This document shows, in pieces, positions 11,712-39,488 of a stretch of 40,011 nt of DNA. This DNA is from Acidimicrobiia bacterium. GTDB taxonomy: Bacteria > Actinomycetota > Acidimicrobiia > Spongiisociales > ZC4RG35. A program made the position numbers and the translations under genes. The notes under the pieces are model-generated. The model was not told the origin of the DNA, made no database searches, and saw nothing but the letters and a program-made list of their open reading frames with translations. Location: NCBI GenBank assembly GCA_025928935.1, contig JAICNB010000026.1, positions 1 to 40,011 on the forward strand, written 5' to 3'. Position 1 is the first letter of the stretch. Every line of letters begins with the position of its first letter.

Positions 11712-13279
11712 CCCCCCTCGAGCGGTTGGAGGAGGCAGCTACGGCCGCCGCCGATCTAGGCTTGGCAGACCATGCACGGTCGGCCCGGGCGTTGGCGGAC
11801 CGGATCCGTCAGCGGCTCGGTTTCACGGGCGGGCTGTACGTGATGGCACTGGTCGGTGGCACCGGGGTAGGCAAATCCTCGGTGCTCAATGCCCTCGCCG
11901 GCGAGGAGGTCAGCCCGGCCAGGGCCCTGCGACCCACCACCGAGCAGCCGCTGGCCTGGGTGGCCAGCGACGCTCGGGAGGAGGTCCGTCCCTTGCTCGA
12001 TTGGCTCGGTGTCGAGCGAGTTGTCGGCCACGACCGCTCCGACCTGGCCGGGGTGGCCATACTCGACTTGCCCGACGTCGACAGTGTCCGTCTCGAGCAT
12101 CGGGCCACGGTCGATGCCCTCCTACCCCGCATCGACGCGGTGGCCTGGGTGGTCGACCCCGAGAAGTACGACGACGAGCGCCTCCACGAGTATCTCCGCC
12201 GCCTGGCGCCCCACTCAGAGCGGATGCGGTTCGTATTCAACAAGGCCGACCATCTCGAGCCCCAACAGCGACAATTGCTGGCCGATGACCTCCGTGGTCG
12301 GTTGGCGGCCGATGGGATCGATGGAGTCACGATCGACATGGTCTCGGCTTTGGATGGCGGCGGGTTCGAGGATTTGCGATCCGAGCTGAGCCGGGCCGCC
12401 GAGGGAAAGGCGATCGTGGCAGCCAAGCTCGCCACGGACGCCGCCACCGAGGTCGATGCGATTGCCCGGGCGGCGGGGCTGGAGCCAGGCAAGCCGCACA
12501 GCCCGTTGCTCCCGACCAAGGAAAGGGAAATGGCGATTGCCGCCGCGGTGGAGGGGGCGATGGCCCTGGTCGATCCGGTCGGGGTGTCCCGCCAGATGGA
12601 AGAGGCGGTGTCGCATCGGGCCCGCCGTCAGGGGGGCTCGCTCCTGGCCCGAATCCTCACCCTCTTCTCGTCCATCACCGGGCGGAAGCGGCGACAGGCG
12701 GACCCTGGCGCCTATCTGCTCGAGTGGCGACGGCGGGGGAGTCTGGGCCATGTCCTCAACCCGGTTCGCTCGGCCCTGGTGAAGGCGGCTGGGGCGGTTC
12801 CGCCAGCCACCAGGCCAGCGGTCCTGAGAACGCTCGGAGCGGACGACGCCGAGACCGAGGTGACCAGGGCCCTCGACCGTGCCACGCGTCAGTCCGCCGG
12901 CGAACTAACCGTGCCCCGCTCGATGCTCTGGCCGGTGGTCGGGTTCGTGCAGCTGCTGTCGGGGGCGGTCCTACTGTTCGCGATCGCCTGGTATTTGCTC
13001 GTCATCTTCGGGCCGGGCCAGCTGCCGGTGGCCACCGTAGATGTTCCCTATCTGGGACCGGTTCCGACGCCCCTCCTCCTGATCACTGGCGCGCTCGTGT
13101 TGAGCCTTCTCCTCGGTTTCGTGCTCAACCTCCATGCGAGATGGATCGGCCGGCGGGCAGGGCAAGAGGTAGCGGCGCGGGTGGGAGAGGCGGTGTCCCG
13201 GTCGATAACCACCGTCGGCTTCGCCGGTCTCGATGCGGTGGAGGCGGCTCGTCGCCATCTTTCCTCAGTGGCCGCTTAG
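11708..13279 (+). CDS. Dynamin-like GTPase, second of a tandem pair, membrane-anchored
   Basis: A 523-aa GTPase with intact motifs: G1 ALVGGTGVGKSSVLNAL (Gly50-Ser58), RPTTEQPLAW for G2, ILDLPDVDSV for G3 (about 117) and NKADHLE for G4 (177-180). Two transmembrane helices lie near 408-432 and 456-478, joined by a short loop, which places both ends in the cytosol. It overlaps the preceding GTPase gene by 4 bases. The intact G4 here and the degenerate one in its partner suggest division of labour. Function is presumably membrane remodelling or repair; no other gene in the operon clarifies this. Confidence 0.87.
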   Translation: MTPLERLEEAATAAADLGLADHARSARALADRIRQRLGFTGGLYVMALVGGTGVGKSSVLNALAGEEVSPARALRPTTEQPLAWVASDAREEVRPLLDWLGVERVVGHDRSDLAGVAILDLPDVDSVRLEHRATVDALLPRIDAVAWVVDPEKYDDERLHEYLRRLAPHSERMRFVFNKADHLEPQQRQLLADDLRGRLAADGIDGVTIDMVSALDGGGFEDLRSELSRAAEGKAIVAAKLATDAATEVDAIARAAGLEPGKPHSPLLPTKEREMAIAAAVEGAMALVDPVGVSRQMEEAVSHRARRQGGSLLARILTLFSSITGRKRRQADPGAYLLEWRRRGSLGHVLNPVRSALVKAAGAVPPATRPAVLRTLGADDAETEVTRALDRATRQSAGELTVPRSMLWPVVGFVQLLSGAVLLFAIAWYLLVIFGPGQLPVATVDVPYLGPVPTPLLLITGALVLSLLLGFVLNLHARWIGRRAGQEVAARVGEAVSRSITTVGFAGLDAVEAARRHLSSVAA

Positions 13280-13382: not shown

Positions 13383-13740
13383 AGAGATCAAGGCAGACAC
13401 CGGACTGGATGTCGTGTTCGAAGCGCTCGCCAGCACACATCGGCGGGGGGTCATCCACGCTCTCAGTCTGCGACCGCACTCGATCAGCCAGTTGGCCTCG
13501 ATCCAGGGGCTCTCGCTGCCTGCCATCCACAAGCACATTCGGGTGCTCGAGGATGCGGGGATGGTGATCCGAAAGAAGACGGGACGAACCAACTTCCTCG
13601 CTCTGAGCAGAAAGCCACTCCGCGACCTGCAGGAGTGGGTGGGTGGCTTCAACCCTTACTGGGGAGACGACAAGGAGAGCCTGGAGAACTACGCCCGCCA
13701 CTTCGGCGGACGCGACGCCGAAAAGGAGGCACGACCATGA
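13369..13740 (+). CDS. ArsR-family winged-helix regulator
   Basis: A small DNA-binding regulator. The core begins VFEALASTHRRGVIHAL, continues with ISQLASIQGLSLPAIHKHIR (helix-turn-helix, recognition helix at SLPAIHKHIRVLE) and the wing AGMVIRKKTGRTNFLAL. This is the type that pairs with YCII or SRPBCC proteins rather than a metal-binding ArsR: no Cys is present. The start is uncertain: TTG 13369 fits a leaderless transcript from the promoter above (about 123 aa), while GTG 13414 is the next candidate (about 108 aa), and neither has an SD. The TGA stop overlaps the ATG of the YCII gene (ATGA). It probably represses its own promoter through the palindrome. Confidence 0.82.
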   Translation: MRLTIEIKADTGLDVVFEALASTHRRGVIHALSLRPHSISQLASIQGLSLPAIHKHIRVLEDAGMVIRKKTGRTNFLALSRKPLRDLQEWVGGFNPYWGDDKESLENYARHFGGRDAEKEARP

Positions 13741-14030
13741 AGAAGTTCGTCTTTCTCTACCAGGGGCTCTGGGAGCCAGGGAACAAGGAGATGATGGACG
13801 GCTGGACCAGCTGGATGGCCGAGATCGGCGACAGCCTCGTCGACGGGGGCAACCCCTTCGGGCAGGGCCGTGAGGTGACCAACACCGGGTCGAGCGACCT
13901 CCCGCTCGGGCCGGAATCGACCACTGGCTACAGCATCGTCGAGGCTGAGACAATGGACGATGCCGAGAAGCTGCTCGCCAACTGCCCGATCGTCACCAGC
14001 GTCCAGATCTACGAAGCGATGGCCATGTAG
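13737..14030 (+). CDS. YCII-related (YciI/DGPF-type) protein
   Basis: A 97-aa protein starting MKKFVFLYQG, with WTSWMAEIGDSLVDGGNPFG and GYSIVEAETMDDAEKLLANC, the usual YCII order of a ferredoxin-like alpha/beta fold. Such proteins are commonly encoded next to ArsR regulators and ECF sigma factors; their chemistry is mostly unknown. ATG start with AAGGAGG 8-9 bases upstream, overlapping the regulator's stop by 3-4 bases, so the two genes form one operon under the TATACT promoter. The family's conserved His is not obvious here. Confidence 0.82.
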   Translation: MKKFVFLYQGLWEPGNKEMMDGWTSWMAEIGDSLVDGGNPFGQGREVTNTGSSDLPLGPESTTGYSIVEAETMDDAEKLLANCPIVTSVQIYEAMAM

Positions 14031-14173
14031 GGGTACGGCCAGGTTGCTCTGTCGCTGGGGACGTGGGCCCGTAGGGGATATCGGCTGGCGGCGGCCGACT
14101 CGATCGATTCTCACTTTGTTCCTGAGGACTTATGGCCCTGGGATATGGGACCGCTTCGTGGAGACTGGTTGCT

Positions 14174-14353
14174 ATGAGCAGCAATGCGGGCGCTGTTGGC
14201 GGTGGAGCGATCTACGGCCTGGGGATCTTCGGAGCCCTCGTCTACTACTGGCAGCAAGCCGATGTCTTCTGGGAGTACCTCCTGGCAATCGTGCAGGGTT
14301 TGTTCTGGCCGGCCTGGATGGTGTACGAGGTCTTTACGACTCTCGGGGGTTGA
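14174..14353 (+). CDS. Small two-helix membrane protein
   Basis: A 59-aa protein: MSSNAGAVGGGAIYGLG, helix one, YYWQQADVFWE, helix two ending FWPAWMVYEVF. Short proteins with this layout (Gly-rich start, a Trp/Phe loop, a FWPA-V-YE ending) are widespread in actinobacteria and cyanobacteria as hypotheticals. Function is unknown. In-frame upstream starts (14132) would add 14 residues lacking this pattern, so ATG 14174 is preferred although its SD is weak. Confidence 0.7.
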   Translation: MSSNAGAVGGGAIYGLGIFGALVYYWQQADVFWEYLLAIVQGLFWPAWMVYEVFTTLGG

Positions 14354-14472
14354 CCGCCCACCAACCACCAGCCCATTCCGGCGGGGCACGCCCACATCAT
14401 GGCGTGATCAGGGCCTCGCGGCTCTGCGACCCATCGGTGACGCGTCACGTCGCCCGGCTCGCCATCAGTTGA

Positions 14473-14502
14473 TTGAACCGGGGCACGGAGGCGGCGTACG
14501 CT
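14473..14502 (+). promoter_or_regulatory. Candidate promoter at the head of the TIR gene cluster
   Basis: TTGAAC (14473-14478), an 18-base spacer, then TACGCT (14497-14502). Transcription would begin about 20 bases before the ATG at 14528, leaving room for the GGGGG SD. Confidence 0.5.
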
Positions 14503-14527
14503 GAGGTAGCAAACCGGACAGGGGGAC

Positions 14528-16111
14528 ATGACCGGAAGCACCTCTCTTTGGGGGGCCACCTATTTCCTGGCGCTGTTCGCCGCGGTGCTCGCCCTCCCGA
14601 CCAGTTGGTTCCTCCTCCTTCGCTATCGGCGCTCGATCCTCCGGCTCATGAACGGGCGGTCTTCCGGTAGTCAGGAGACAGACGACCTCTACCCGGTCCG
14701 TGAGCATCCCCTGCCATCGGCGTCACCGGACACCAAAGCCGTCGAGGTGGGGATGCGACGCAACGTGCTCGTGGTGGTCGTCGTCGCACTCGTCTCGGGG
14801 TTCGCCTTCTCCGCGTTGTTCCTGGTTTGGAACGACTTCGGGATCTCGATCTGGCGGCTGTCGACCATCGGGATCCTCTACACGTGGCCGGGGGTGATCG
14901 GCATCTGGATCGTCACCGGGGGACGGCGACGGTGGGTGCTCACCGCGCTGACGGTCTACTTCGTCGGACTTGCCATCGCCGTGATCGTCGGGGGCGGGTC
15001 ATGGGAGGTACCGGCGCAGTTGTTCCTGTTCAGCCTGGTCCCCACCGCGGCGCTCATCGGATTCCTCTCCCGTCGCTTCCGCGGCGTGGGCGCCCTGGTG
15101 CTCGGCACGATGATGGTGGCTCTGGCCGGTTCTCAAGCCTTCGCCTTCGCCGTCCTCGGCAACGAGACCTTGATCACGGCCTGGGCCGATCTGCTCACCG
15201 GGCTCGGCGTGACCAACGGCATGGTGGCCTGGCTGGCCCTGGTCGGTGTGGGCTTCGTCGTGTCCCTCGTCCTCGGAGTCGTGGCCACCCGTTTGCTGGC
15301 CGGTTGGTATGCGCGATTTGGCTTCTCGGATGAGATGCTCCTTCTCGGCGCGACTTTCCTGGTCTTCGCCATCGACCAATCCGGTACGGCAAGCACGACC
15401 GAGGCAGGCCCCTTCGGGATCGGGGTGCTCATCTACCTCCTGGCCGGCGTGATCGCCTTCACCATGTACCGCCTCATCCATCGCCGACCTGTCGACCCGA
15501 CTTGCCTGTTGGTGCTCAGGGTGTTCTCGGCCGACCCGACCCGTCAGCAGCTCCTCGACCGGATCGCCTCCAGTTGGAGGTATCTGGGCCCGGTCAGGAT
15601 GATCGGTGGTCCCGACCTTGCCGCGAACAACGTCGAGCCGGACGAATTCCTCGCCTTCGTGAGCGGACGGACACGGAGACTCTTCATCAGCGGTCCCGCG
15701 GACCTGGCCGAGGGGATACGGGCCCTCGAGACACGGACCGACCGGGACGCTCGCTACCGCATCGATGAGTTCTTCTGTTTCGACGACACCTGGCGACCTA
15801 CGGTGGACGAGCTGCTGGCGCGATCCGACGCCGTGCTGATGGACCTGCGTTCCTTCGGCGCAAACAACCTGGGGTCGACCCACGAGCTGCAGCTACTCGC
15901 CTCACGTGGGGCATTGGGCCGGACCGTCCTCCTGGTCGGCCCGCAGACAGATCGTGATCTGCTCCACTCGACTATCGGACCCGGAGAGCACGAAGACGCG
16001 AAACTGCTCGAGGTCCGGGACGACGACCCGGACCAGGCGTTGGCCGCCCTCACCGAGGCTGCTGCCACGGCCCGACCGCCCACCGGAAGTAGGTTGCACC
16101 GATCGGACTGA
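14528..16111 (+). CDS. Polytopic membrane protein with cytosolic Rossmann/TIR-like domain
   Basis: A 527-aa protein. One helix (about 8-30) and a linker are followed by about eight helices (77-320). A soluble domain of about 200 residues begins near 325 (LLVLRVFSADPTRQQLL). It contains MIGGPDLAANNVEPDEFLAF, YRIDEFFCFDDTW, a stretch SDAVLMDLRSF, and STHELQLL, with a Glu in the place where TIR or deoxyribosyltransferase-like domains keep a catalytic Glu. I recognise this domain only from uncharacterised membrane proteins; the TIR-like or nucleotide-binding reading is an inference. ATG start with GGGGG SD. Its TGA (16109-16111) overlaps the only plausible start of the TIR gene that follows, so the two are probably co-translated and may act as membrane sensor and effector. 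Confidence 0.8.
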   Translation: MTGSTSLWGATYFLALFAAVLALPTSWFLLLRYRRSILRLMNGRSSGSQETDDLYPVREHPLPSASPDTKAVEVGMRRNVLVVVVVALVSGFAFSALFLVWNDFGISIWRLSTIGILYTWPGVIGIWIVTGGRRRWVLTALTVYFVGLAIAVIVGGGSWEVPAQLFLFSLVPTAALIGFLSRRFRGVGALVLGTMMVALAGSQAFAFAVLGNETLITAWADLLTGLGVTNGMVAWLALVGVGFVVSLVLGVVATRLLAGWYARFGFSDEMLLLGATFLVFAIDQSGTASTTEAGPFGIGVLIYLLAGVIAFTMYRLIHRRPVDPTCLLVLRVFSADPTRQQLLDRIASSWRYLGPVRMIGGPDLAANNVEPDEFLAFVSGRTRRLFISGPADLAEGIRALETRTDRDARYRIDEFFCFDDTWRPTVDELLARSDAVLMDLRSFGANNLGSTHELQLLASRGALGRTVLLVGPQTDRDLLHSTIGPGEHEDAKLLEVRDDDPDQALAALTEAAATARPPTGSRLHRSD

Positions 16112-23536: not shown

Positions 23537-24556
23537 TCAGATCCCGCGGCTGCGGGCGGAGCGCACCAGGGCGGCTCCGATGGCGCCGACGAGGCCGCCC
23601 CCCATGAACACCAGGAAGGGGATGAGCACGGTCTCGAAATCGGGCAAGTCCTGGCCGAAGCCACCATTCGTCACTGCGCCGAAGCCGGCGATGATGAACC
23701 ACACGAACCCTGCGATCGCGGTGATGCCGCCCAGCACCTCCAGGACCTGGCCGATGCGGAGCTTGACCCGATCGGGGTTGGTCCTCCCCTGACGCTCGAG
23801 CACGTCGATGATGGCCGAGTCCAGTCTGGCCAGCTTGGCCGGGTCGAGCCCGGTGATGTCGACTGACTGCGTCCGCTGCAGTAGGAACTGCAGATCCTCG
23901 GGGTAGCGAACATCCTCCTGCACCGCCGGGATGATCGGCACACGCAGATTGCGCGCTGCGGTGATCTCGTCCAGCACCCATTCCTTGGCCACCGAGTTCG
24001 AGCTCACCAGGAGGACCACCACGGCGGACTCCTTGATCCCGGATTGGATGCTCGCCGCCCAGGCCGACCCGCCCTTGATGTCGGCCTCGTCGAGCCATGC
24101 GTCCCACCCTCTTCGCTCCAGCCACGTGGCCAGTGCCCGGGCCGAGCGCTTGTCCTCGGAGGCATGACTGATGAACACCCGTCTCGATCGTCCGCCACCC
24201 GCAGCAGGCGGAGAGGTCGTCGGCGCCGGCGTGGGGTGGGAGATGCTGCCCGACGATTCGATGCGCCCTCGAGCCAGGCCGATACGGATGTCGTCGCCGT
24301 CGCGCAGGTCGACCCAGTCGAGGACGGCGCGTCCGTTGACTGTGGTGCCGATGCCCGATTTCAGATCTCGCAGGAGAAGATGAGCGCCGTCCCAGGTGAG
24401 CTCGGCATGACGGTCGGCCACATCATCGATCTGGATCTGGATGTCGGCGTCGTCGGCCCGACCGAGAACCTGGGCGCCAGGCCTGAGGTCGACGATCGTT
24501 TCGGTGCCGTCCGGGGCCAGTACCACCAGGCGGGGCGTGGTCGATGGGATGTCCAT
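23537..24556 (-). CDS. FHA-TIR protein with two C-terminal membrane helices
   Basis: A 339-aa protein. The FHA domain (about 20-95) keeps the phosphothreonine-binding residues Gly32-Arg33 (VLGRADDA), Arg49-His50 (DRHAEL) and Asn74-Gly75. A Pro/Ser linker leads to a TIR domain (about 125-240): RRVFISHASEDKRSA, WDAWLDEADIKGGSAW, VVLLVSSNSVAKEWVLDEI, with Glu197 in the catalytic position. Two helices (about 274-296 and 309-331) close the chain, leaving the TIR and FHA parts in the cytosol. The FHA domain implies control by a Ser/Thr kinase, none of which is encoded in this window. The ATG start has AAGGAG 6 bases upstream; an open frame extends further up to 25225 but is antisense to other genes. 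Confidence 0.92.
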   Translation of the reverse strand: MDIPSTTPRLVVLAPDGTETIVDLRPGAQVLGRADDADIQIQIDDVADRHAELTWDGAHLLLRDLKSGIGTTVNGRAVLDWVDLRDGDDIRIGLARGRIESSGSISHPTPAPTTSPPAAGGGRSRRVFISHASEDKRSARALATWLERRGWDAWLDEADIKGGSAWAASIQSGIKESAVVVLLVSSNSVAKEWVLDEITAARNLRVPIIPAVQEDVRYPEDLQFLLQRTQSVDITGLDPAKLARLDSAIIDVLERQGRTNPDRVKLRIGQVLEVLGGITAIAGFVWFIIAGFGAVTNGGFGQDLPDFETVLIPFLVFMGGGLVGAIGAALVRSARSRGI

Positions 24557-24643
24557 CACCTGCTCCTTTCGACCTGGCTCTTCGTATCCGAACACTACGT
24601 GGCGAGCCGGGACGAGACCCGGAGGACCGGTACCATCCCAGGG
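24557..24643. promoter_or_regulatory. Divergent promoter region between FHA-TIR and SLOG-like genes
   Basis: These 87 bases must hold the promoters of both genes. On the plus strand TACCAT (24631-24636) lies 7 bases before the GTG at 24644, suggesting a leaderless transcript. On the minus strand a TAGTGT hexamer lies upstream of the FHA-TIR SD. A shared regulatory region links the two genes. Confidence 0.45.
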
Positions 24644-25174
24644 GTGGCGACCGTCCTGTTCTCGGGGCACATGGTGGATGCCGCGGACCGCCACGAGCCC
24701 CGCTTTCCGGCCGAGCGAGTCCCCTTGGCGCAGCGTGCCATCGCTGACGCGGTCTGGCTCATCGACGAAATCGACACGATGGCCATCTCCGGGCTTGCCT
24801 GTGGGGGTGACCTCCTCTTCGCCGAGGAGTGGCTGAAGACAGGCCGGCCCTTGCAGGCCTATCTGCCACGTGAGGAGGCGGAGTTCCTCGACGAGTCTGT
24901 CCGGTTCGCCGGGGAGGAGTGGGTAGACACGTTTCGTCAGGTCACCGCCGATCCGAACCTGATGGTGATCGGCCCGGACGAGGAGATGCTCCGTCTGGAC
25001 GATCCGCACACCGCCAACAACCTCCGCATGCTGGACGCCGCATTGCTGCGCCCCGGCAGTCTCCACGGCCTGTTTCTCTGGGACGGCAAGGGAGGCGACG
25101 GTCCGGGGGGGACCGAGCACCTCGCTTCCGCCGTCGTCGAGGAGGGCGGAAGCCTCACCATCCTCCGCCCGTGA
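24644..25174 (+). CDS. SLOG-like putative nucleotide-binding sensor
   Basis: A 176-aa protein beginning MATVLFSGHMVDAADRHEPRF, followed by ISGLACGGDLLFAEEWL, LQAYLPREEAEFLDESV and GLFLWDGKGGDGPGGTEHL. The GHM-D-x-R-PRFP start and the SG-ACGGD loop match domains that sit at the N-terminus of large TPR and TIR-associated conflict proteins and resemble the SLOG (LOG/DprA-like) Rossmann fold. Such domains bind nucleotides or nucleotide-derived signals, including products of TIR enzymes in some systems. Start: GTG 24644, because upstream codons in this frame are antisense to the FHA-TIR gene. It is free-standing here, which is unusual, and divergent from the FHA-TIR gene. Confidence 0.75.
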   Translation: MATVLFSGHMVDAADRHEPRFPAERVPLAQRAIADAVWLIDEIDTMAISGLACGGDLLFAEEWLKTGRPLQAYLPREEAEFLDESVRFAGEEWVDTFRQVTADPNLMVIGPDEEMLRLDDPHTANNLRMLDAALLRPGSLHGLFLWDGKGGDGPGGTEHLASAVVEEGGSLTILRP

Positions 25175-25211
25175 GCCCAGTACGGCCACTTCGGCGTAGA
25201 TTCGGCCGGCG

Positions 25212-25835
25212 ATGGACCGGGGCACACTTCAGGAGGACGTCTACATCCCGGTCGCCGTGGACGCGGAACGGGTGATCGAAGGAATCCCGATGGTCCGGGC
25301 CACGTACTTCGTGGTCAGGACGAATGCCCCCACGGCCTTCTGGGAGCTCGAGCTCCCGGCGGTCACCTCGTTGCACGGTGTCGGTGCCATCGGCATCGCC
25401 GGGGTGGTCTACGGGACGCTCCGTGATCGTGGCACCACCGGGATCGACCTGTTCTCGAGCCCGGACGACGTCGCGGCGATCTTCGCCCTGGAGGCGGAGG
25501 GGCTCCCGCTCTCGGTCGATCTAGAAGATGTCTGGATCCCGAAGCCCTGGATCATGGCCGCCCAGACCGACGAGCCGACGGGCAACGGCGACGAACTGGC
25601 CCGCGGCGAGGTCTTCCGTGTGGCGCTGCCCGTCTTCCAGCAGGCGTATCGCTACACAGCCGGGGATCTCGACATGATCGCGCTCCTCGGCACCGAAGCC
25701 CTGGGGCAGATCCTCTACTCACCCGAGGAGACGGATGCGCTGCACGCCTGGTCGGTAGAACAGATCGAGATCACCCGGCAGGCCTTCCCGTCGAAGACGG
25801 TGAAGCTCCGCTGGCGGGAGGCGAGCAGTGCCTGA
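25212..25835 (+). CDS. Protein of unknown function coupled to the MBL gene
   Basis: A 207-aa soluble protein with no recognised family. It has mixed alpha/beta character, a Gly-rich hydrophobic stretch (VGAIGIAGVVYGTL), and neither signal peptide nor clear helix for the membrane. A TAGATT hexamer (25196-25201) lies 10 bases before the ATG and could be a -10 box with a near-leaderless start. Its stop overlaps the GTG of the metallo-beta-lactamase gene by 8 bases, and the GGGAGG serving that start lies in its last codons, so the two are translated together. It may be a partner or regulator of the MBL enzyme. Confidence 0.75.
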   Translation: MDRGTLQEDVYIPVAVDAERVIEGIPMVRATYFVVRTNAPTAFWELELPAVTSLHGVGAIGIAGVVYGTLRDRGTTGIDLFSSPDDVAAIFALEAEGLPLSVDLEDVWIPKPWIMAAQTDEPTGNGDELARGEVFRVALPVFQQAYRYTAGDLDMIALLGTEALGQILYSPEETDALHAWSVEQIEITRQAFPSKTVKLRWREASSA

Positions 25836-28971: not shown

Positions 28972-29820
28972 GTGGCGCCCCGTCTCACAGCTGAGGTCTC
29001 CGAGAGTGTGTGGCGAGCACTCTCCGTGGAATCGGAGAAGAGTGGGGAGCCGATCCCGTCCGTGCTGGATCGGGTCCTGTCCGCCGCATTCGACCTCGAC
29101 AGGCACACCCTGTTCCAGGTCTCGACCTCGAACGCCCTGGTCCAGGGTGTGTTTCGCGGCTCGGTCACCGTGGGAGACCTGAAACGAAACGGCGATTTCG
29201 GGCTGGGGACCTTCGAAGATCTCGATGGGGAGCTGGTGATGGTCGAGGGGGTCTGTTACCGGGCCACGGGCGGGGGTGTGGTCACCTCACCACCCGACGA
29301 TGCCTCGGTCCCCTTCGCCGTGGTCACCCACTTCCATGCCGATGTGTCGACGACGACGGGGGCCGGGTCCCTGGCCGACCTCACCGCAGCGGTCGACTCG
29401 AGCAGACCGTCGGAGAACCTTTTTGTGGGGATCCGGGTCGACGGGCGGTTTGCCCGGCTGGCGTTGCGGGCGGCCTGCGCGGCCGAGCCGGGGGAGGGTC
29501 TGCTCGAGGCGACAGCCCATCAGAGCGAGTTCGACGTGGTCGACGAGGTGGGGACCCTGGTCGGGTTCTGGGCGCCCACATATGCCCGGGCAGTGAACGT
29601 GCCCGGCTATCACTTCCATTTCATCTCCGAGGATCGGCGATTCGGCGGTCATCTGCTCGGCATGGAGGCCGGCCCCCTGGAGGTCGGCATCCACATCGAA
29701 TCTGAGCTACACGTCGCCATCCCCGAGACCGAGGAGTTCCTTGCTGCCGATCTCAGCGGTGACCATGAAGAGGCGTTGCATCGGGCGGAGACCGCGGAGC
29801 ATCGGGCCGGGACCGGATAG
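28972..29820 (+). CDS. budA: Acetolactate decarboxylase with N-terminal RHH-like extension
   Basis: Converts 2-acetolactate to acetoin, diverting pyruvate to a neutral product. The family core starts at about residue 43 (HTLFQVSTSNALVQGVF), with GDFGLGTFEDLDGELVM, and the zinc site HFHFISEDRRFGGHLL provides three His; a Glu-rich end (IPETEEF) supplies the distal Glu. Residues 1-42 (APRLTAEVSESVWRALSVE and so on) are not part of the core and look like a ribbon-helix-helix (CopG-like) motif, as seen in some actinobacterial homologues. GTG start without an SD. No acetolactate synthase is nearby, so it relies on acetolactate from branched-chain amino acid synthesis. Confidence 0.9.
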   Translation: MAPRLTAEVSESVWRALSVESEKSGEPIPSVLDRVLSAAFDLDRHTLFQVSTSNALVQGVFRGSVTVGDLKRNGDFGLGTFEDLDGELVMVEGVCYRATGGGVVTSPPDDASVPFAVVTHFHADVSTTTGAGSLADLTAAVDSSRPSENLFVGIRVDGRFARLALRAACAAEPGEGLLEATAHQSEFDVVDEVGTLVGFWAPTYARAVNVPGYHFHFISEDRRFGGHLLGMEAGPLEVGIHIESELHVAIPETEEFLAADLSGDHEEALHRAETAEHRAGTG

Positions 29821-31319: not shown

Positions 31320-34300
31320 CTACAACCCCACGTAGTCGGCGTACACCAGTCGCTGTTCCCACACCGGGCGTCCTCGCGGGGCACCGAGGTCGGCAGGGTC
31401 TCCCGGGAGCTTCTCCCATTCCTCGATGGCGACCCGCCAATTGGAGTCGGCGCCGGGGCGACGGAGCGGAATGTTCACCGGGCTGGCAAGTGCTGCGACC
31501 CAGGCCGCCTCGAACATGTTCCTCCCGGTGCCCTTGACCTCCATCTCCACCACGTCGACCGTCTCCCAGCCGAGGTCGCTGCCGATGTCGGGATCACGAC
31601 GTTGGAGCCGGGCCACCATGAGCCGGTTCATCCGCACCCAGTTCCCCAATCCGACCACGTTCTGGGGGAAGGCTCGGGTCTGCGGTGACGGGGCCGAGGT
31701 GCGCACTCCGACCGGGCCGGACACCACCACCCGGACATGACGGACGTCGGTGCGGCTGACGCTGGCAGTGCGCTCAGGGGTGAGTTGGACAAAGTCGCAG
31801 AGCACCTGTGGGGAGAGATGACACCGGTCGATGCTGTGCGGCTGATAGCGGGCAAGGCTGAGCCTGACGAAGGGCCACAGCTTGGAGCCCGGCTCGATGG
31901 CGATATCGACATACCAGAGCTGGCGCTCCTCGTTGTATTGCGGCTCATAGCCGAGAACCACGACCTGGGCATCCTTGTCGGGCAGGAGCAGAGTCACCGG
32001 CCCGGCCACCGGAGTGGCGTCGCCGGGCCGGTCTTCGAGACCGAGAGCTCGCATCAGGTTGTCCAATTCGAGGAACATGGCCCGGTTCGGCACCGGCTGG
32101 CTCACCCAGACCGGGTCCGATCCCCACTGGCTGACCAGCTTGTCAAGGCCGGCGTCGTTGGCAGCAGGGGCGAGCAGCACACCCAGCAGCTCGCCGGCAC
32201 CCGATGAGTACCAGGGGCGCTCCAGATAGATCCGCACTCCGGCTCGTCTGCGCCTTCGCAGCGCCACCGGCTGTTCCGGCTCGGTCCCCTCGTCCCAACG
32301 GAGCAGTGGCAGCACCGAGTGGACGATGGGGGCGGCGGGCCTCGCCGAGCTGAGGATGTTCAAGGTCTCGACCGGGCCCACCACGCTCTGCCCATCGTCG
32401 ACCGGGAGATCGGGGTCGGTCGGGCCGGGAGTCAGCGTCTCGGCGTCGAAGTACTCCCGGAATCGGGTGGAGGCCCGGAACCGGTAATCGATGTGGTGAT
32501 GCTTGGTGTCGCCGAGCAGATGACGCACCCCATGGACCCAGACCGGCCCGAACCCCGGCACATCCACCTCCACGTCTGCAGGAGGGGGAGGAGTGGGCTG
32601 AGGTGGCGGCACCGGTGCCGGGGCCAACACGGCCAGATCCTCCTCCTCACGAATTCGGCTGGTGAACGCCACTCCACCGTGGCGTTGCTCGCTCGGTCCA
32701 TCCAGGGAGAGGTCATCCACCGGGTCGACCCAGGAAGTCTCGGCGGTGAGCTGTTCGGTGCTGGGGCCGTGGACGTCGACCGCCCCGAAGAACACGACGT
32801 CGGTGCTCCCTTCACCGGGACGGAGCGGGGTCAATGCGGTGGGACGGGGCACCTCCAGGGGGCGGGGCACGGCATGGACCAGAGTGACCTCGTCGAAGGG
32901 GGTGAATGCCCAGAGCCAGCCATCGGCCGCGGCCTCGGCGATGTCCGGGTTGTCCCTCAGCACCTGGGGCAAGATCAGCCACAACCCGAACAGGTCCAGA
33001 TCCTCCCGCTCCATCGATGAAGCGAGACGGAACCGCTGGGTGTCACCGGGAGGGAGCCCGACCCGAAGCTCCCCGCCGACCAGCCGGCCCTCGAGGACGT
33101 CCGATCCCACCAGCTCGAGCCGGAACGAACGGGGCACCGGCCACTGACCCCGGTATCTGGCGGTGAATCCCTCGGTCCCGAAGGGAAAGACGATGTTGCG
33201 GTCCCGTCCGGCCTCGGGGAAGACCAGGGAGATCCCTCGGGCCACCACGTCGGGGAGATAGGGGATGGCCAACTCGTCTGTGTCGTGGATCACGTACTGT
33301 CCGGGAGCGGGCGGCTCGCCGGCGGTCAGCGGCAGCGTCTTCCGCTCGGAAAGAGGCACCGACGACTCGCTGGCCAGCGCGATCCCCTCTTGTGGCTCAC
33401 GCAGCTGAGGGTTGTCGAGCCGGGGGATGTCGACGTCGAACAGGGTTCCCGCCTCACGCAGTGCCACCGCCAGCATCGACTGGTGCCGGTTGGGGTCGGT
33501 GGACCCGATGGCTGTGTCGAACGCTCCGTGTAACTCGGCCTCGCTCTGACTGGTCTTGGGCGGGACCAGATGCCGCTCGCTCGACGGGCGATATCCCAGG
33601 TCCACGTGCTCCGAGGCATAGGGCTGAGGCGGCGTGACCGTGATCTCCAGGGTCGCCCGGTCCTGGTCGACACCGGAGCGGATCACCACCTGACGCAGGG
33701 ACTCCCCGAAGGTCAGCTCATGCCGCGCCACCACCACCGGGGGGGCCACCGGGTCCCAGCGAAGGAAGGGCCGGAGTGGGCTCACCGTGGCGATCTCCTC
33801 AACGCTGGGAAGCTCGAGACCGGGCCGGATGACCGCCCTGGGGTCGAAGATGGCGGTGTTGGCCATGTACTCGTGCTCCTCGGCCAGAACGGCATCGGCG
33901 AAGGCCCGATCGACCAGCGTCGCCCTGCCGATCCCGACTCCTGCGACCGGGCCCGCCGATCGTCGCGTGCGGAGACGACCCAGCACCGGCTCCGGGATCT
34001 GGTCGAAGTGGAGAACCTCCGACGGCGAATCGCCCATGACCCCCCGGGTCTCGACGATGTGAGCGGCAGCCGCTCCCCGCAGGATCGGGAGCAGTGGTGG
34101 GTCGGCGGCATCCGCGGTTGGCGGCAGCATGGCGGCGACCGAGGACAATGTGGGTTCGTCGGGGTCGGGGGACGGGCCGAGCAGATGAGGACGGCTGTTC
34201 CCCGCCAGGTCGACCGCCCACGCTCGGAAGGCATAAGACCTCCCGTACCGGAGCCGGGGAAGGGTGCCCGGCTCGACCCGATTGGTCACCACAAGGGGGG

Positions 34301-35831
34301 TCACCGGGTCGGGGTCGACCTCGGTCTCCTCCACGATCTCGTCACCGTCTTCGTGGCGGACCCGCTTCCCGGGCCGGGGCGCGGCCAGGCTCCACCCGTC
34401 CCAGCCGAACATCGCCTCATGGACATGGACCGGGCTGTCATCGACTCCGACGGTCTCGGTGGCGGTCGTGCCCTGGATGAACCCGTCCTCGGCCAGATCC
34501 TTGGCGATGGGATCCTCCTCGTGGATCTCGGCGTCGATCCGGCGGGCGTGGAGCGTGTTCCAGGTTTGAGATTCCTCGTCCCAGACCTCGACCCGCATCC
34601 CCCGGGTCACGTCCTCGGTGCCGAGCATGGTTGGCTGATTCCCCTCGATGCCGCCCGCGATCTCGTGCTGGCGCCCCATTCTCACCTGGGTGTTCAGCGC
34701 CTTCTTCCGTCGGGCGACGGTGAAGCCGATGGAGCGGAGGGCGGTGGGGGCGGCATGAACCGGCGCCTCTTCGTCCTCGATGCCGGTGAGCCGGGGCAAC
34801 GCCCAGATGAACCGGTCGAGCTTCAGCGCAGTTCCGTCGGGGTCGAGGTCGAGCACGGCGAAGTTGTCGGTGTCGCCGAGTCGGAGGGCACCCTGATGCC
34901 AATCCTCGGAGTGATCGACGGTGACCATGTCGTCGCCGACCGCCACGCACTCGGTGCGGGTCGCCCGGCTGATGACGTCCCCTTCGACAGTGACCGATGC
35001 CGTGAGGTGCTCGCTGTCGGCCAACCGCGGCGGGTCGCCGACGACGAGATCGATGACCAGCCCGAGGCGACGCTGCAGCGCCGGATGGTCGGAGACGAAG
35101 GTGCACCGCTCGTGGAAGTCGGGGTCGGGGCGGGGCACCTCGGCCACCACCGGGTCCTCGGAGGGTCGCTCCTGATAGGGCAGGGCCGACTCCGGGCGCT
35201 CGTAGAAGCGGCGGGCTCGATGCACCTCGAGCACAGTCCGGGTCATCGGGTCGGCACCGCCGAGGATCTCCTCGAGCTGGTCGAGCGGGATCGGACGGCG
35301 CCGAGGCCCACCGTCACGGTCACGCTCCCCCAGCACCATGTCGAAGCTCCGGGTGACCACGCTCTCGTCCCAGGGCCCATCTCGGCTCCCCACCCATTGG
35401 CTCAACAGTCGGCCCAGCGGGTGGGCCGAGGGCAGAGGCGGGGAGGTGGGGCTGGTGAATAGTGGGAGCAGGTGCAGCGCCTTCCCGGCGTCGTGGACGG
35501 CGGCTGCGTTGAAGGTGCGCCAATGCCGATCCGACCAGTCGGGTGGCTTGGGGCCCCGAACCGGTGTATCGGCTGGGAAGACCCCGTCCCATGCCGCGCT
35601 GTCGAGCACTTTCAACAAGGGCTCGGCCTCGATCAGCCCGATCTGGTCGGAGAGCTCGATCTTTGCCTCCGCCACTACCTCGGCCCAATGGAGGAACACA
35701 GGGAACTGGTCGAGGCGGCCCTCCGGCTTGTCGGGGGTGAGCCGGGGTGAGATGAACAGGGACACGTGGAACTCGGCGCTCTCCGACTTGGAGTGGGGGA
35801 GGGCGACGACGGTGAAGCTCTCGGTGACCAC
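31320..35831 (-). CDS. Giant protein of unknown function, 1503 aa
   Basis: Very large protein, no recognised family as a whole, no signal peptide and no clear transmembrane helix. It appears mostly beta. A stretch LRYGRSYAFRAWAVDLAGNS (about residue 537) resembles the end of a fibronectin-III-like domain. A proline linker (PPPQPTPPPP, about 1070) separates the last third. Near 1190 a run of Arg (LRRRRRAGVRIYLERPW) begins a region with QYNEERQLWYVDIAIEPGS and RYQPHSI. The GTG start comes 3 bases after the TGA of the upstream 1217-aa gene, so the two are translationally coupled and probably form a complex. Base composition and codon use look like neighbours, so recent transfer is not evident. 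Confidence 0.85.
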   Translation of the reverse strand: MVTESFTVVALPHSKSESAEFHVSLFISPRLTPDKPEGRLDQFPVFLHWAEVVAEAKIELSDQIGLIEAEPLLKVLDSAAWDGVFPADTPVRGPKPPDWSDRHWRTFNAAAVHDAGKALHLLPLFTSPTSPPLPSAHPLGRLLSQWVGSRDGPWDESVVTRSFDMVLGERDRDGGPRRRPIPLDQLEEILGGADPMTRTVLEVHRARRFYERPESALPYQERPSEDPVVAEVPRPDPDFHERCTFVSDHPALQRRLGLVIDLVVGDPPRLADSEHLTASVTVEGDVISRATRTECVAVGDDMVTVDHSEDWHQGALRLGDTDNFAVLDLDPDGTALKLDRFIWALPRLTGIEDEEAPVHAAPTALRSIGFTVARRKKALNTQVRMGRQHEIAGGIEGNQPTMLGTEDVTRGMRVEVWDEESQTWNTLHARRIDAEIHEEDPIAKDLAEDGFIQGTTATETVGVDDSPVHVHEAMFGWDGWSLAAPRPGKRVRHEDGDEIVEETEVDPDPVTPLVVTNRVEPGTLPRLRYGRSYAFRAWAVDLAGNSRPHLLGPSPDPDEPTLSSVAAMLPPTADAADPPLLPILRGAAAAHIVETRGVMGDSPSEVLHFDQIPEPVLGRLRTRRSAGPVAGVGIGRATLVDRAFADAVLAEEHEYMANTAIFDPRAVIRPGLELPSVEEIATVSPLRPFLRWDPVAPPVVVARHELTFGESLRQVVIRSGVDQDRATLEITVTPPQPYASEHVDLGYRPSSERHLVPPKTSQSEAELHGAFDTAIGSTDPNRHQSMLAVALREAGTLFDVDIPRLDNPQLREPQEGIALASESSVPLSERKTLPLTAGEPPAPGQYVIHDTDELAIPYLPDVVARGISLVFPEAGRDRNIVFPFGTEGFTARYRGQWPVPRSFRLELVGSDVLEGRLVGGELRVGLPPGDTQRFRLASSMEREDLDLFGLWLILPQVLRDNPDIAEAAADGWLWAFTPFDEVTLVHAVPRPLEVPRPTALTPLRPGEGSTDVVFFGAVDVHGPSTEQLTAETSWVDPVDDLSLDGPSEQRHGGVAFTSRIREEEDLAVLAPAPVPPPQPTPPPPADVEVDVPGFGPVWVHGVRHLLGDTKHHHIDYRFRASTRFREYFDAETLTPGPTDPDLPVDDGQSVVGPVETLNILSSARPAAPIVHSVLPLLRWDEGTEPEQPVALRRRRRAGVRIYLERPWYSSGAGELLGVLLAPAANDAGLDKLVSQWGSDPVWVSQPVPNRAMFLELDNLMRALGLEDRPGDATPVAGPVTLLLPDKDAQVVVLGYEPQYNEERQLWYVDIAIEPGSKLWPFVRLSLARYQPHSIDRCHLSPQVLCDFVQLTPERTASVSRTDVRHVRVVVSGPVGVRTSAPSPQTRAFPQNVVGLGNWVRMNRLMVARLQRRDPDIGSDLGWETVDVVEMEVKGTGRNMFEAAWVAALASPVNIPLRRPGADSNWRVAIEEWEKLPGDPADLGAPRGRPVWEQRLVYADYVGL

Positions 35832-35834
35832 GGC

Positions 35835-38800
35835 TCAGTCTCCTGCGAAGGCGAGGCAGTAGTCGGTCCAGGCCGGCGAGGACCCGTCGTCCTCGACCAT
35901 CACCTCGAGGAAGTTGGGATCGCCGTTGGAGCCTGCGAATCGGCGTTCGGCGTGGATGGTGACCGAGGTGGAGAAGAACAACACCTCCACCTCGATGGTG
36001 AGAGAGGCGCTGCCCACCATCTTCCCGGTGGCGAACTCATACAACAGCTCCAGGTAGAGCTCGATCGAGGCCGAGATCAGGCCGAGGACGTCGACCTCGC
36101 CTCGGAGCCGGAAGTAGCCGGCCAGCGATCCGGCGTCGGCCTCGAGCCGCATGTAGATTCCGATCATCGCCGAGATCGACCCGGAGGCGACACCGAAGTC
36201 GACGGCGAGCACAGCGCCGGCTTCCAGGCCCAGCTCGAGGACGTCTAGCCCGTCGGGGGAGAGCCGAATGCCGAACCAACCCCCGCCGCCGATGAACAGG
36301 ACCGCCAGTGTGAAGGGCCGCTCCCGCGTGCAGAAGTCGAACCCGACGGTGACCGCCTTGCCCAGGAAGGGGACCTGGACATCGGCGCCCAGGGAGATGT
36401 TGGAGAGGTTGAACACCCCCACCGCCACGTTGGGAAGGGCCAGGGTGAATCCGGCGTTGAGGCCTTCAGCTGTGACCTCGAGGAATGGCGGGTCGGAGAA
36501 ACCGTCGAAGGGGATCAGGTCCTTGAGGATCTCGATGAAGCCCAAGATGCCGACGAACTCGATCTCGTTGAGGACGACGTCGACATCGGGCTTGCCTGCG
36601 GAGCCTGCCTTGAATGACAGATGGTCGAACTTGAAGCGGACCAGGTCGGCCCCGGGCAGGAGGTTGAGTGTGAAATCACGGAGCTCGGCGAGCGCATCGA
36701 CCTTCATCCCGTCCTTGCCGCTGGCTCTCCCCTCCACCGACAGGGCAAAGCTGTCCTCTTTCAACTCGAGGATCGGATCGGCCTCGGGCCAGGACCGCAT
36801 CTTCGGCGCCCATTCGAATCGGAAGTTGAAATCGATCGAGCCACCGGCCAGCCCGTTGAGGAAGTCGAAAAGGTCGTCGATGAGGTCGGCGGCATCGGCG
36901 ACGCTGGAGAGGACATCAGCCAGGGAGAGCAGCCGTTCACGGATCAGCGGGGGAAGCTGCGGGGCGACCAGTCGGATCTGGCCGACGGCATCGCGTAGCG
37001 CCTGGAGCGGGTTGGCGAGGGCGGCCTCGATCTCGTTCTTGGCCGCGTTGAGCAACCCATCGAGGGTGTCCAGGACGTCGTCGACCGCATCGTCGATGTC
37101 GTCCTTCAGGTCCTCGGCGGCCTGAAGTGCGGCCTCTGCCTGGTCTTGCAGCTCCTGGGCCTTTCCCACCACCCGGTCGACCTGACGTTGGGCGTCGACG
37201 ACGGCCTCCTCGACCATGGTCTTGGCCCGCTCCAGGTCGGCGATGAAGCCCTCGATCCGTTCCAGGGTCTCGGTGACGATGTTCGGGGCGTCGTCGATAT
37301 CGATGCCGACGAGGGCGAGGATGTCGAGCAACTCGACGATCCCGAACAGCTTGGGGAGCCGGATCTGGGCGAGGAACTGCGTCGGGTCGAATCCCCCGGT
37401 GGCTACCGAGTCGATGTCGCCGACCGTTCCTTTGAGACGGGAGAGCCCATCGATCATCAAGTTGGGCTGAATGAAGCCTCCCGCCTTGTCCGACCCGGCT
37501 CCGGCGTCGCCGAACTTGAGCTCGGGCGGGTTGGCGACCTTGGCCCAGACCTCGCCCGCGTTGGCCGCGCCGCCGAATCCGTGGTCCAGGTAGGGCTGGG
37601 CGTATGAGATGGCGATCGGGCCCACCGGGGAGAGGCGTTCGACCGCCGGGATCAGCACGTCGGCCGTGGTCAGGTGCGGGACCGACGTGCCTTGAATGGC
37701 GGTGCCCGAGAAATGGAGCGTGCTGGTCGGCAGCATCGTCTCGCCACCTCTTACAACGGGAGTGAAGGCAACCTCCTGGCCGGCGCCGGGCACGTGGGAT
37801 GCGTCCGGGTCGTCGATATACGCGTCTTCCACCTCGTCGAAGCCCTGAAAGGCGGCGGCCACCCAGAGCAGCGGAGCCTGGAGACGGACCCGTCGCCCTT
37901 CCCGGTCGACAGTGTGGAGGATGAACCTGAACTTCTCTCCGTCGACCATCGGGAAGAAGTACCGGCCCTCATCGGCGAGGGGCGGCTCGGGATCGAGCGT
38001 CGGGGTGACGGTCGGGGCGAGCCTCACCTCGGTGAAGGGGAGATCTCCCTGCTCGAACCAACGGGTTGGCTCGCCGATCTCCAGGAACTTGCGCTGGTAG
38101 AGCGACGCGATGGAAGGCGATGCCTTCTTCATCTTGCGCTCGGTCAGCTTGACCAGCGTCGCCCTGTGTCCGAACGGGAACAGGTACCCCGGGTACTCCA
38201 CTCTCACGTATTGGTCCCGACCCATCGGGGCAATGTGGTCCCAGGCGAGGATGGCCAAAATGCCGCTCTGGTCGTATGGCTCGGTGTCCCAGCGGCCGTG
38301 GAGGTTGAGCCAGGCACCCAGACTGGACAGCCAGAGTCCCCTGGCATCCACCGGTTGTGGTGGGATCGGGCCGTCCCTGCCAATCCAGGTCTCGGCGCTC
38401 TGGCGGACCAGCATGTGACGGTCGGCACCGTCGAGGGACATCCGGAAGGGATCGTTGGAGTGGACCGGTTGTTTCAGGGCCTTCCAATTGGGGAGCGCTT
38501 CCCGGTCCCGTGCCCACACGGCGCGGATCACCCGCTGACCGGCGGTTCTCTCGTCGACGAGATGTTGGCCCTCAACCTCCGTCCGCACCCCGAGCCTGGT
38601 GTGCCATAGCTCGATGCGATGTGGAGCGCCCTCGGCTGCGACCGGTGCCATCGCATGGGCCCACCCCCCCTGGTCACTTGGGGAGATCTCGAGACGGAAG
38701 GGAGCCGCGATGGCCGTCTCCAGCAAATCTGTCGGCCGACTCAGCGTGGGTCGTCTCGGGATGCGGATCGGACGGTCGGGCCGGATCAAACCGGGCTCGC

Positions 38801-39488
38801 CGAGGATGCCGGAGACCAGATTCTCGTCGAGACGGATCGCCGTCCCGGCCCGGTAGGTGAGGAGGTCCCGCATCCGACGCATCCCACGTGCCCTGACTGC
38901 CAATGAGCCGGCGGGGCTCAGCTCGGGAGCCCGGGTCCGCGCCGTCGCCCTGGTGAACACCACGCCGTCGGGGCCGGGGACTCCGATCACGTCGTCGGGC
39001 AGGTGGATCACAGGGCCGGTCGGTGGCAAAGGTGTCGAGCCGGTTCTGGCCGTGGCCAGCGGGTGGACGATCATCTGCAAACGACCCATGGCATCGAGGA
39101 TTCCAACCGTCGAGAACTTCACGATGTCTGTCTCGGAGATGGCGAAGACGAGACGGGTGGCCCGGGCCGGGATGGCTCCTACCGGCGGCGACACCTCCTG
39201 TGCGTCCTCGACCTCGTATATGGCCTCCTCACCCAGATGCTGATAAGAGAAGCTCACTACCAGCCGGGCGTCGGGGGAGGTGGAACGGAGCACCGGAGAA
39301 TCCCCTTCGACCAGCTCGACGTCGTATCCCGCCACAGTCAGCGAGACGAGGTCCTCCGGGCGGATGATGTCGACTTGGATGTCAGGTGCCGGGACGGGCT
39401 CGGGCTCCCTGGGTGTGAGTCGACGCCATCCAGCGCCAAACCTGAGTTCTGTCCCCGGAACGTGCACGTCCGTGTGGTCGTTCCCCAT
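35835..39488 (-). CDS. Giant protein of unknown function with coiled coil and beta-rich C-terminus, 1217 aa
   Basis: First gene of the giant pair. The N-terminal two-thirds is a mixed region with many short beta motifs (VEYPGYLFPFGHRATLVKL and others). A long heptad-like helical section (about 750-835; AQRQVDRVVGKAQELQDQAE) follows. From about 880 to 1200 comes a continuous series of amphipathic strands with Gly-rich turns (IGGGGWFGIRLSPDGL, DFGVASGSISAMIGIYMRL), suggesting a beta-sheet groove or barrel that could contact lipid. No signal peptide. ATG start with GAGG 5-6 bases upstream. I know of no characterised relative; structural, transport or particle-forming roles are all possible. Confidence 0.85.
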   Translation of the reverse strand: MGNDHTDVHVPGTELRFGAGWRRLTPREPEPVPAPDIQVDIIRPEDLVSLTVAGYDVELVEGDSPVLRSTSPDARLVVSFSYQHLGEEAIYEVEDAQEVSPPVGAIPARATRLVFAISETDIVKFSTVGILDAMGRLQMIVHPLATARTGSTPLPPTGPVIHLPDDVIGVPGPDGVVFTRATARTRAPELSPAGSLAVRARGMRRMRDLLTYRAGTAIRLDENLVSGILGEPGLIRPDRPIRIPRRPTLSRPTDLLETAIAAPFRLEISPSDQGGWAHAMAPVAAEGAPHRIELWHTRLGVRTEVEGQHLVDERTAGQRVIRAVWARDREALPNWKALKQPVHSNDPFRMSLDGADRHMLVRQSAETWIGRDGPIPPQPVDARGLWLSSLGAWLNLHGRWDTEPYDQSGILAILAWDHIAPMGRDQYVRVEYPGYLFPFGHRATLVKLTERKMKKASPSIASLYQRKFLEIGEPTRWFEQGDLPFTEVRLAPTVTPTLDPEPPLADEGRYFFPMVDGEKFRFILHTVDREGRRVRLQAPLLWVAAAFQGFDEVEDAYIDDPDASHVPGAGQEVAFTPVVRGGETMLPTSTLHFSGTAIQGTSVPHLTTADVLIPAVERLSPVGPIAISYAQPYLDHGFGGAANAGEVWAKVANPPELKFGDAGAGSDKAGGFIQPNLMIDGLSRLKGTVGDIDSVATGGFDPTQFLAQIRLPKLFGIVELLDILALVGIDIDDAPNIVTETLERIEGFIADLERAKTMVEEAVVDAQRQVDRVVGKAQELQDQAEAALQAAEDLKDDIDDAVDDVLDTLDGLLNAAKNEIEAALANPLQALRDAVGQIRLVAPQLPPLIRERLLSLADVLSSVADAADLIDDLFDFLNGLAGGSIDFNFRFEWAPKMRSWPEADPILELKEDSFALSVEGRASGKDGMKVDALAELRDFTLNLLPGADLVRFKFDHLSFKAGSAGKPDVDVVLNEIEFVGILGFIEILKDLIPFDGFSDPPFLEVTAEGLNAGFTLALPNVAVGVFNLSNISLGADVQVPFLGKAVTVGFDFCTRERPFTLAVLFIGGGGWFGIRLSPDGLDVLELGLEAGAVLAVDFGVASGSISAMIGIYMRLEADAGSLAGYFRLRGEVDVLGLISASIELYLELLYEFATGKMVGSASLTIEVEVLFFSTSVTIHAERRFAGSNGDPNFLEVMVEDDGSSPAWTDYCLAFAGD

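Follow-up and report, generated by a model that had tools for sequence, protein, structure and literature searches.

A widespread, horizontally moving pair of very large bacterial proteins, with Tat signals on one partner in some lineages

Results

Two adjacent giant genes at one locus

The DNA analysed here, referred to as the window, is a stretch of 40,011 nucleotides from an Acidimicrobiia bacterium (contig JAICNB010000026.1). Its minus strand carries two very large genes. Gene A, which starts with ATG and encodes 1217 aa (131.9 kDa; 35835-39488 (-)), is followed after only 3 nt by gene B, which starts with GTG and encodes 1503 aa (165.3 kDa; 31320-35831 (-)). Both extents were taken from the open reading frames and from homologues, and the lengths and spacing agree with those given in an earlier note on this sequence. 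The 3′ end of A contains a Shine-Dalgarno-like AGGAGA (35839-35844 (-)), 7 nt ahead of the B start codon, suggesting that translation of B may be coupled to that of A. G+C content at the three codon positions is 0.69/0.45/0.84 in A and 0.73/0.48/0.84 in B, values that match those of the window's remaining genes, and other genomes encode intact homologues at 54-62% identity. Because of these codon-position values, the AGGAGA before B and the intact homologues, we regard A and B as real genes rather than GC-rich shadows.

Both proteins are acidic, with only two Cys in A and four in B (positions 243, 295, 1337 and 1345), and their combined mass is ∼297 kDa. The genome that contains the window has one copy of the pair, with a gene for a cysteine-synthase-like enzyme 3′ of B and a divergent gene before A. 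Elsewhere, the window encodes a protein of 562 aa in which FHA and TIR domains are combined (TIR_2, E 2e-25; 23537-25225 (-)), possibly a signalling or defence effector, as well as an alpha-acetolactate decarboxylase (28972-29820 (+)). Two adjacent and mutually related genes of 561 and 523 aa (10026-13279 (+)), of which the first encodes a dynamin-type GTPase domain, form a bacterial dynamin-like pair.

Searches of A and B against Pfam, NCBIfam, PHROGs, PDB sequences and profiles returned nothing beyond chance coiled-coil matches to the helical stretch of A, which bears out the earlier claim that neither protein belongs to a known family. We also found no description of the pair in the open-access literature, and saw no catalytic motif among the invariant alignment columns. 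A match to NCBIfam ZorA (E 3.8e-6) is far under the model cut-off, covers the helical stretch only and was discarded as chance coiled-coil similarity. The PGAP label 'apolipoprotein A1/A4/E' on a rhizobial A likewise stems from the helical region and is below the Pfam cut-off. A role as phage structural protein was rejected, as the PHROGs matches concern the coiled coil only and no phage record carries the pair; one IMG/VR contig (L174; loci of relatives carry L numbers) holds an A-B pair.

A two-gene module in ten phyla

Homologues turned up in a few percent of the genomes sampled, namely 4 of 99 among near relatives, 8 of 395 within the class, 12 of 396 within the phylum and 14 of 395 in a further class of that phylum. 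A first contig scan with A alone gave no matches. Scanning ∼85,000 species genomes with a pattern from the B alignment identified 376 stretches that encode relatives, which is a lower bound. The best 80 of these, several of them metagenome bins with taxon labels that may be wrong, are assigned to ten phyla altogether (Actinomycetota, Pseudomonadota, Myxococcota, Acidobacteriota, Cyanobacteriota, Chloroflexota, Balneolota, Ignavibacteriota, Armatimonadota and Bacillota). Plasmids carry the pair in Cupriavidus, Diaphorobacter, rhizobia, Ruegeria and Streptomyces.

A gene for A ends at most 400 nt upstream of B in 106 of the 107 B genes with an intact start. The median gap is 3 nt and 103 of the gaps are within 50 nt; at the sole unpaired B, the contig cuts the locus. 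Distances among A proteins correlate with those among B proteins (r = 0.95). A and B are very probably obligate partners, and this fixed pairing across relatives supports the coupled giant proteins of the earlier note. Apparent A-B fusions in L048 and L056 were dismissed: the long open reading frames are wrong-frame extensions, and A sits in another frame. Nocardia abscessus has two A-B pairs in tandem (L109:2888-19384).

The orientation of the immediate neighbours of the pair is near-random, and no Pfam family occurs in more than two of 86 such neighbours. This fits a self-contained, stand-alone two-gene operon. A search for recurrent partner genes gave none beyond small clades. Barrel and Ig-like proteins accompany the pair in Balneolota, Ignavibacteria and Armatimonadota; among them are a putative outer-membrane barrel gene (∼640 aa, called from sequence appearance only) in L133, L135 and L146 and a small secreted Ig-like protein, both beside the pair in Balneolota and Ignavibacteria (barrel and Ig-like genes at L133:14178-16658 and L146:3479-4357 and 13564-15462; no Pfam family above cut-off). 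A secreted serine-protease-like gene lies 3′ of B in three Streptomyces, and Ig-like genes do so in L053 and L055.

In a quick tree of 100 B proteins, which has some long branches, supported clades mix Sphingomonas, betaproteobacteria, actinobacteria, a cyanobacterial bin and an acidobacterial bin. The B of the window adjoins copies from its own order/family (L024, L025) inside a 35-row clade whose A proteins have no signal peptide. The disagreement of this tree with taxonomy indicates that the pair has probably spread by repeated horizontal transfer. Overall, A-B is an undescribed, widespread and horizontally moving two-protein family.

Predicted architecture of A and B

To describe A, we used an AlphaFold2 model of residues 18-1217 (50 alignment rows; pLDDT 79.5, pTM 0.61). 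An N-terminal beta domain with RPxDL and PPQHxxEEA motifs (residues 37-136; 39081-39380 (-); pLDDT mostly >90) precedes a large beta-rich core, which includes GRDQYVRV..FPFGHRA..TER and is the most conserved part of the protein (residues 247-657; 37518-38750 (-)). Residues 744-877 (36858-37259 (-)) are confidently predicted as a helical bundle or coiled coil, which is an insert missing from several relatives. The fold of B was read from the AlphaFold2 model of a compact homologue, L149 (pLDDT 84.8, pTM 0.70), in which a largely helical N-terminal third is followed by Ig/Fn3-like domains. The earlier note had seen no clear helices in either protein, a view that the helical regions of both models contradict.

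Alignment to the modelled homologue places the string of Ig/Fn3-like domains at B residues about 986-1503 (31323-32876 (-)), downstream of the most conserved B signature, LPRLRYG...VDLAGN (residues 525-545; 34197-34259 (-)). The B model matches Fn3 triplets with Z 9.6 over 266-272 residues and an rmsd of 13-14 Å over the string, a likeness at the level of fold only, and B has no match to Pfam fn3. The predicted fold nonetheless supports the Fn3-like regions noted earlier and assigns them to B.

At the C terminus of A, residues 1009-1184 (35937-36464 (-)) are predicted to form an amphipathic antiparallel beta-meander with porin-like geometry, at a pLDDT of about 65-87. Its strands are 9-18 residues long. 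Across 50 homologues, one face of the strands from residue 1009 is almost uncharged with a mean hydropathy of +1.7 to +3.2, and the opposite face has 13-48% charged residues. Among the matches listed by VIA, A model residues 979-1168 superpose on OmpG (Z 12.6, 180 residues, 3.5 Å), and other porins appear too. Among those listed by Foldseek, MTP and lipovitellin give the three best E-values (4.7e-5 to 9.2e-4), at a global TM of only 0.06-0.07 and a prob of about 0.2; a BFVD fold search gave no usable match. Strand faces and folds thus lend support to the proposal of a strand-rich C terminus suited to lipid contact, and locate it in A. On the model, we consider the case that this sheet contacts lipid or membrane to be evenly poised, and its hydrophobic face would fit a carrier, a pore or a plain core alike.

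Tat signals on A in part of the family

The A protein of the window has no Tat or Sec signal: it lacks RR-x-[FLVI] with a hydrophobic run, and the open reading frame upstream of the ATG gives none. The statement of the earlier note that neither protein has a signal peptide thus holds for the window copy but fails for the family, as in 17 relatives the conserved part of A is preceded by a canonical Tat signal, in several cases with an AxA-type cleavage site (L027, L028, L030, L052, L054, L056, L077, L078, L090, L093, L133, L146, L157, L175, L176, L178 and L184). In S. meliloti, for instance, it reads ITRRDFLGAAAAAPIMTATANLALAAEP; R. ruizarguesonis has ISRRGFLLASAVLPVAPEATFADS, Ruegeria ISRRTFLGSSLAITAAPALA and an actinobacterium TRRTFLGGLAVVAAVVATTSPAQA. 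A strict Tat pattern occurs in 11 of 102 A proteins compared with 25 of 1112 other genes. On B, no Tat signal was found in 76 proteins, and the strict pattern fits no true B of 111; its sole match (L056) is the wrong-frame N-terminus of an open reading frame. Mapped on the B tree, the Tat label changes 6 times versus 14.1 when shuffled. Because most of the Tat signals are on deep branches, their absence from the signal-less clades may reflect loss just as well as repeated gain elsewhere. Tat export is probably a genuine property of the family.

Two copies of the pair, both divergent and rhizobial, are linked to tatA. On plasmid pC of S. meliloti LMB1, a gene for a 55-aa TatA starts 50 nt after B (L077:19637-19804); on an E. 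adhaerens plasmid, a related tatA lies directly 3′ of B (L179 about 4220-4360 (-)), the B there being degraded and about 30% identical. Other plasmid tatA genes (Sinorhizobium B11, Jiella) were set aside because they belong to denitrification or respiration clusters without the pair. The window's own genome encodes TatA. In S. meliloti, A has 331 kDa and B 192 kDa, together ∼523 kDa, and rhizobial A proteins reach 334 kDa. The largest A seen, with 3311 aa and a Tat signal, is that of Ruegeria sp. THAF33, where B has 1899 aa (L184:3897-19531 (-)).

At the site of the Tat signal in other members, A of the window has the motif LRFGAGWRRL (residues 15-24; 39417-39446 (-)). Of 96 A proteins, 11 contain the pattern LRFxxGWRxL (in L089 it falls within the lectin part), compared with a mean of 0.17 in shuffled tails, and about ten members of the window's clade, from more than one phylum, have it. 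The motif might serve for docking or targeting; its conservation is explained in part by common descent of the tail.

Some members have additional surface modules, each in a single member only: two N-terminal LysM in the A of Williamsia, which belongs to the signal-less clade; an N-terminal similarity of the L089 A to lectin PLL3 (PLL-lectin-like propeller, E 1.9e-5); and three CWB2 wall-binding repeats at the C-terminus of the L054 B. Taken over the whole family, the Tat signals, the tatA genes and the LysM, lectin and CWB2 modules narrow the earlier choice of 'intracellular or surface' to surface or secreted; for the window copy, that choice is not narrowed.

Discussion

Our preferred explanation, which we hold to be about evenly balanced against all others, is that A and B make up an obligate two-subunit envelope or secreted complex in which B is carried by A through Tat where a signal exists. 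The analysis itself shows the pairing, the family and its spread, which members have Tat signals, the tatA genes behind B on two plasmids and the predicted folds; the physical A-B complex, its export and its contact with lipid or membrane are what we infer. In this view, a horizontally mobile operon encodes both subunits of a single large complex without enzymatic function. B would serve as a multi-Ig/Fn3 scaffold, and A would have two beta-rich core domains as well as the amphipathic beta-meander at its C terminus, which may bind lipid or insert in a membrane. The 'large particle' suggested earlier would be plausible. Because A has the Tat signal and B has none, assembly in the cytoplasm and folded exit, with B as hitch-hiker, would be the most likely route in Tat-bearing lineages. 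In some members, the extra lectin, LysM or CWB2 domains may then anchor the complex to glycans or the wall. The window copy would be the same complex, with the short N-terminal motif replacing the signal, and might be released, wall-bound or cytoplasmic; we rate action outside the cytoplasm slightly below even for this copy.

Several points stand against this explanation. Neither the window's A nor any member of its 35-row clade has a signal peptide, and the likeness of A to lipid-transfer proteins and outer-membrane barrels is one of fold only, with very low global TM-scores and the limited pLDDT of the C-terminal part. Moreover, the reported reach of Tat cargo is ∼150 kDa (PMC6708511), compared with ∼297 kDa for the window pair and ∼523 kDa in S. 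meliloti. On the other hand, export of signal-less subunits by Tat-exported partners is established (PMC4273604, PMC10924467). In Tat hitch-hiker complexes such as E. coli PaoABC (PMC4273604), one subunit has the signal and its adjacent partner has none, as in the Tat-bearing relatives of A-B. Unlike these, A-B has no redox cofactor domain and is far larger, and the window copy lacks the signal. Pending function, A-B is best called a very large variant of such signal-plus-hitch-hiker envelope complexes. Giant bacterial surface proteins such as Giant1-5 of A. kunkeei (PMC12863079) are also very large and encoded by consecutive genes, whereas A-B consists of exactly two different subunits in fixed order in many phyla. 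The bead-on-string Ig-like domains of B are shared with alpha2-macroglobulin and complement C3, which are among its Foldseek matches, but B lacks the thioester CGEQ motif and a Pfam A2M domain.

The alternative that fares best, though doubtful, is that the pair of the window's clade is a cytoplasmic two-subunit scaffold or compartment and that the versions with a Tat signal form a side branch that has moved out of the cell. The lack of a signal on A or B in this clade, the few Cys and a short N-terminal motif of docking-peptide type are in line with such a location. However, the LysM-bearing A of Williamsia falls within the same signal-less clade, and Tat-bearing members are scattered over deep branches. 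Strings of Ig/Fn3 domains, as in B, are typical of extracellular proteins.

Alternatively, A-B could be a secreted carrier of lipid or hydrophobic material akin to large lipid-transfer proteins such as MTP and lipovitellin, which share large amphipathic beta sheets and helices with A and provide its top Foldseek E-values. The strands of A with one uncharged face would suit such a carrier. Tat quality control makes it unlikely that folded cargo exposes a naked hydrophobic sheet, which also speaks for a carrier. We nevertheless think this unlikely, given the global TM and prob values of these matches. A-B is bacterial and has two subunits, with an Fn3-type partner; A has no Pfam match to Vitellogenin_N/LLTP, and its helical part is an insert instead of the superhelix of those proteins.

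Still less probable is a released membrane-active complex, in which the meander of A inserts, B and the lectin or wall domains bind target cells, and signal-less copies exit by lysis. It would account for the hydrophobic strand face and the barrel-like C terminus of A, of which residues about 996-1188 superpose as an antiparallel meander on OmpG and CymA (Z about 12), as well as for the lectin and wall-binding additions and the patchy horizontal spread with plasmid copies. Yet the pair has no recurrent neighbour for immunity, lysis or delivery, and neither protein resembles a known toxin family in Pfam, NCBIfam or PHROGs. Unlike outer-membrane beta-barrels, the meander is part of a 1200-aa protein without Sec signal, with Tat in some relatives, and the hosts found are mostly monoderm actinobacteria. 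A defence system component, finally, is very improbable: dpd or other island genes are found near some of the copies in rhizobia, but no PADLOC system recurs among the 86 immediate neighbours, and the Pfam search of A and B revealed neither a nuclease nor an NTPase or sensor domain.

Returning to the envelope or secreted complex, its most far-reaching version, which we consider speculative and rather unlikely, is that A-B complexes of 300-520 kDa are assembled first, exit in folded form via Tat and then work extracellularly as particles that bind lipid or membranes, some plasmids bringing a dedicated TatA. An uncatalogued two-protein family with nearly 3000 residues per locus in ten or more phyla is in itself a large annotation blind spot. 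If Tat-bearing members export intact A-B complexes, the family would provide a direct test of the Tat cargo size limit, and such export would also bear on why tatA travels with the pair.
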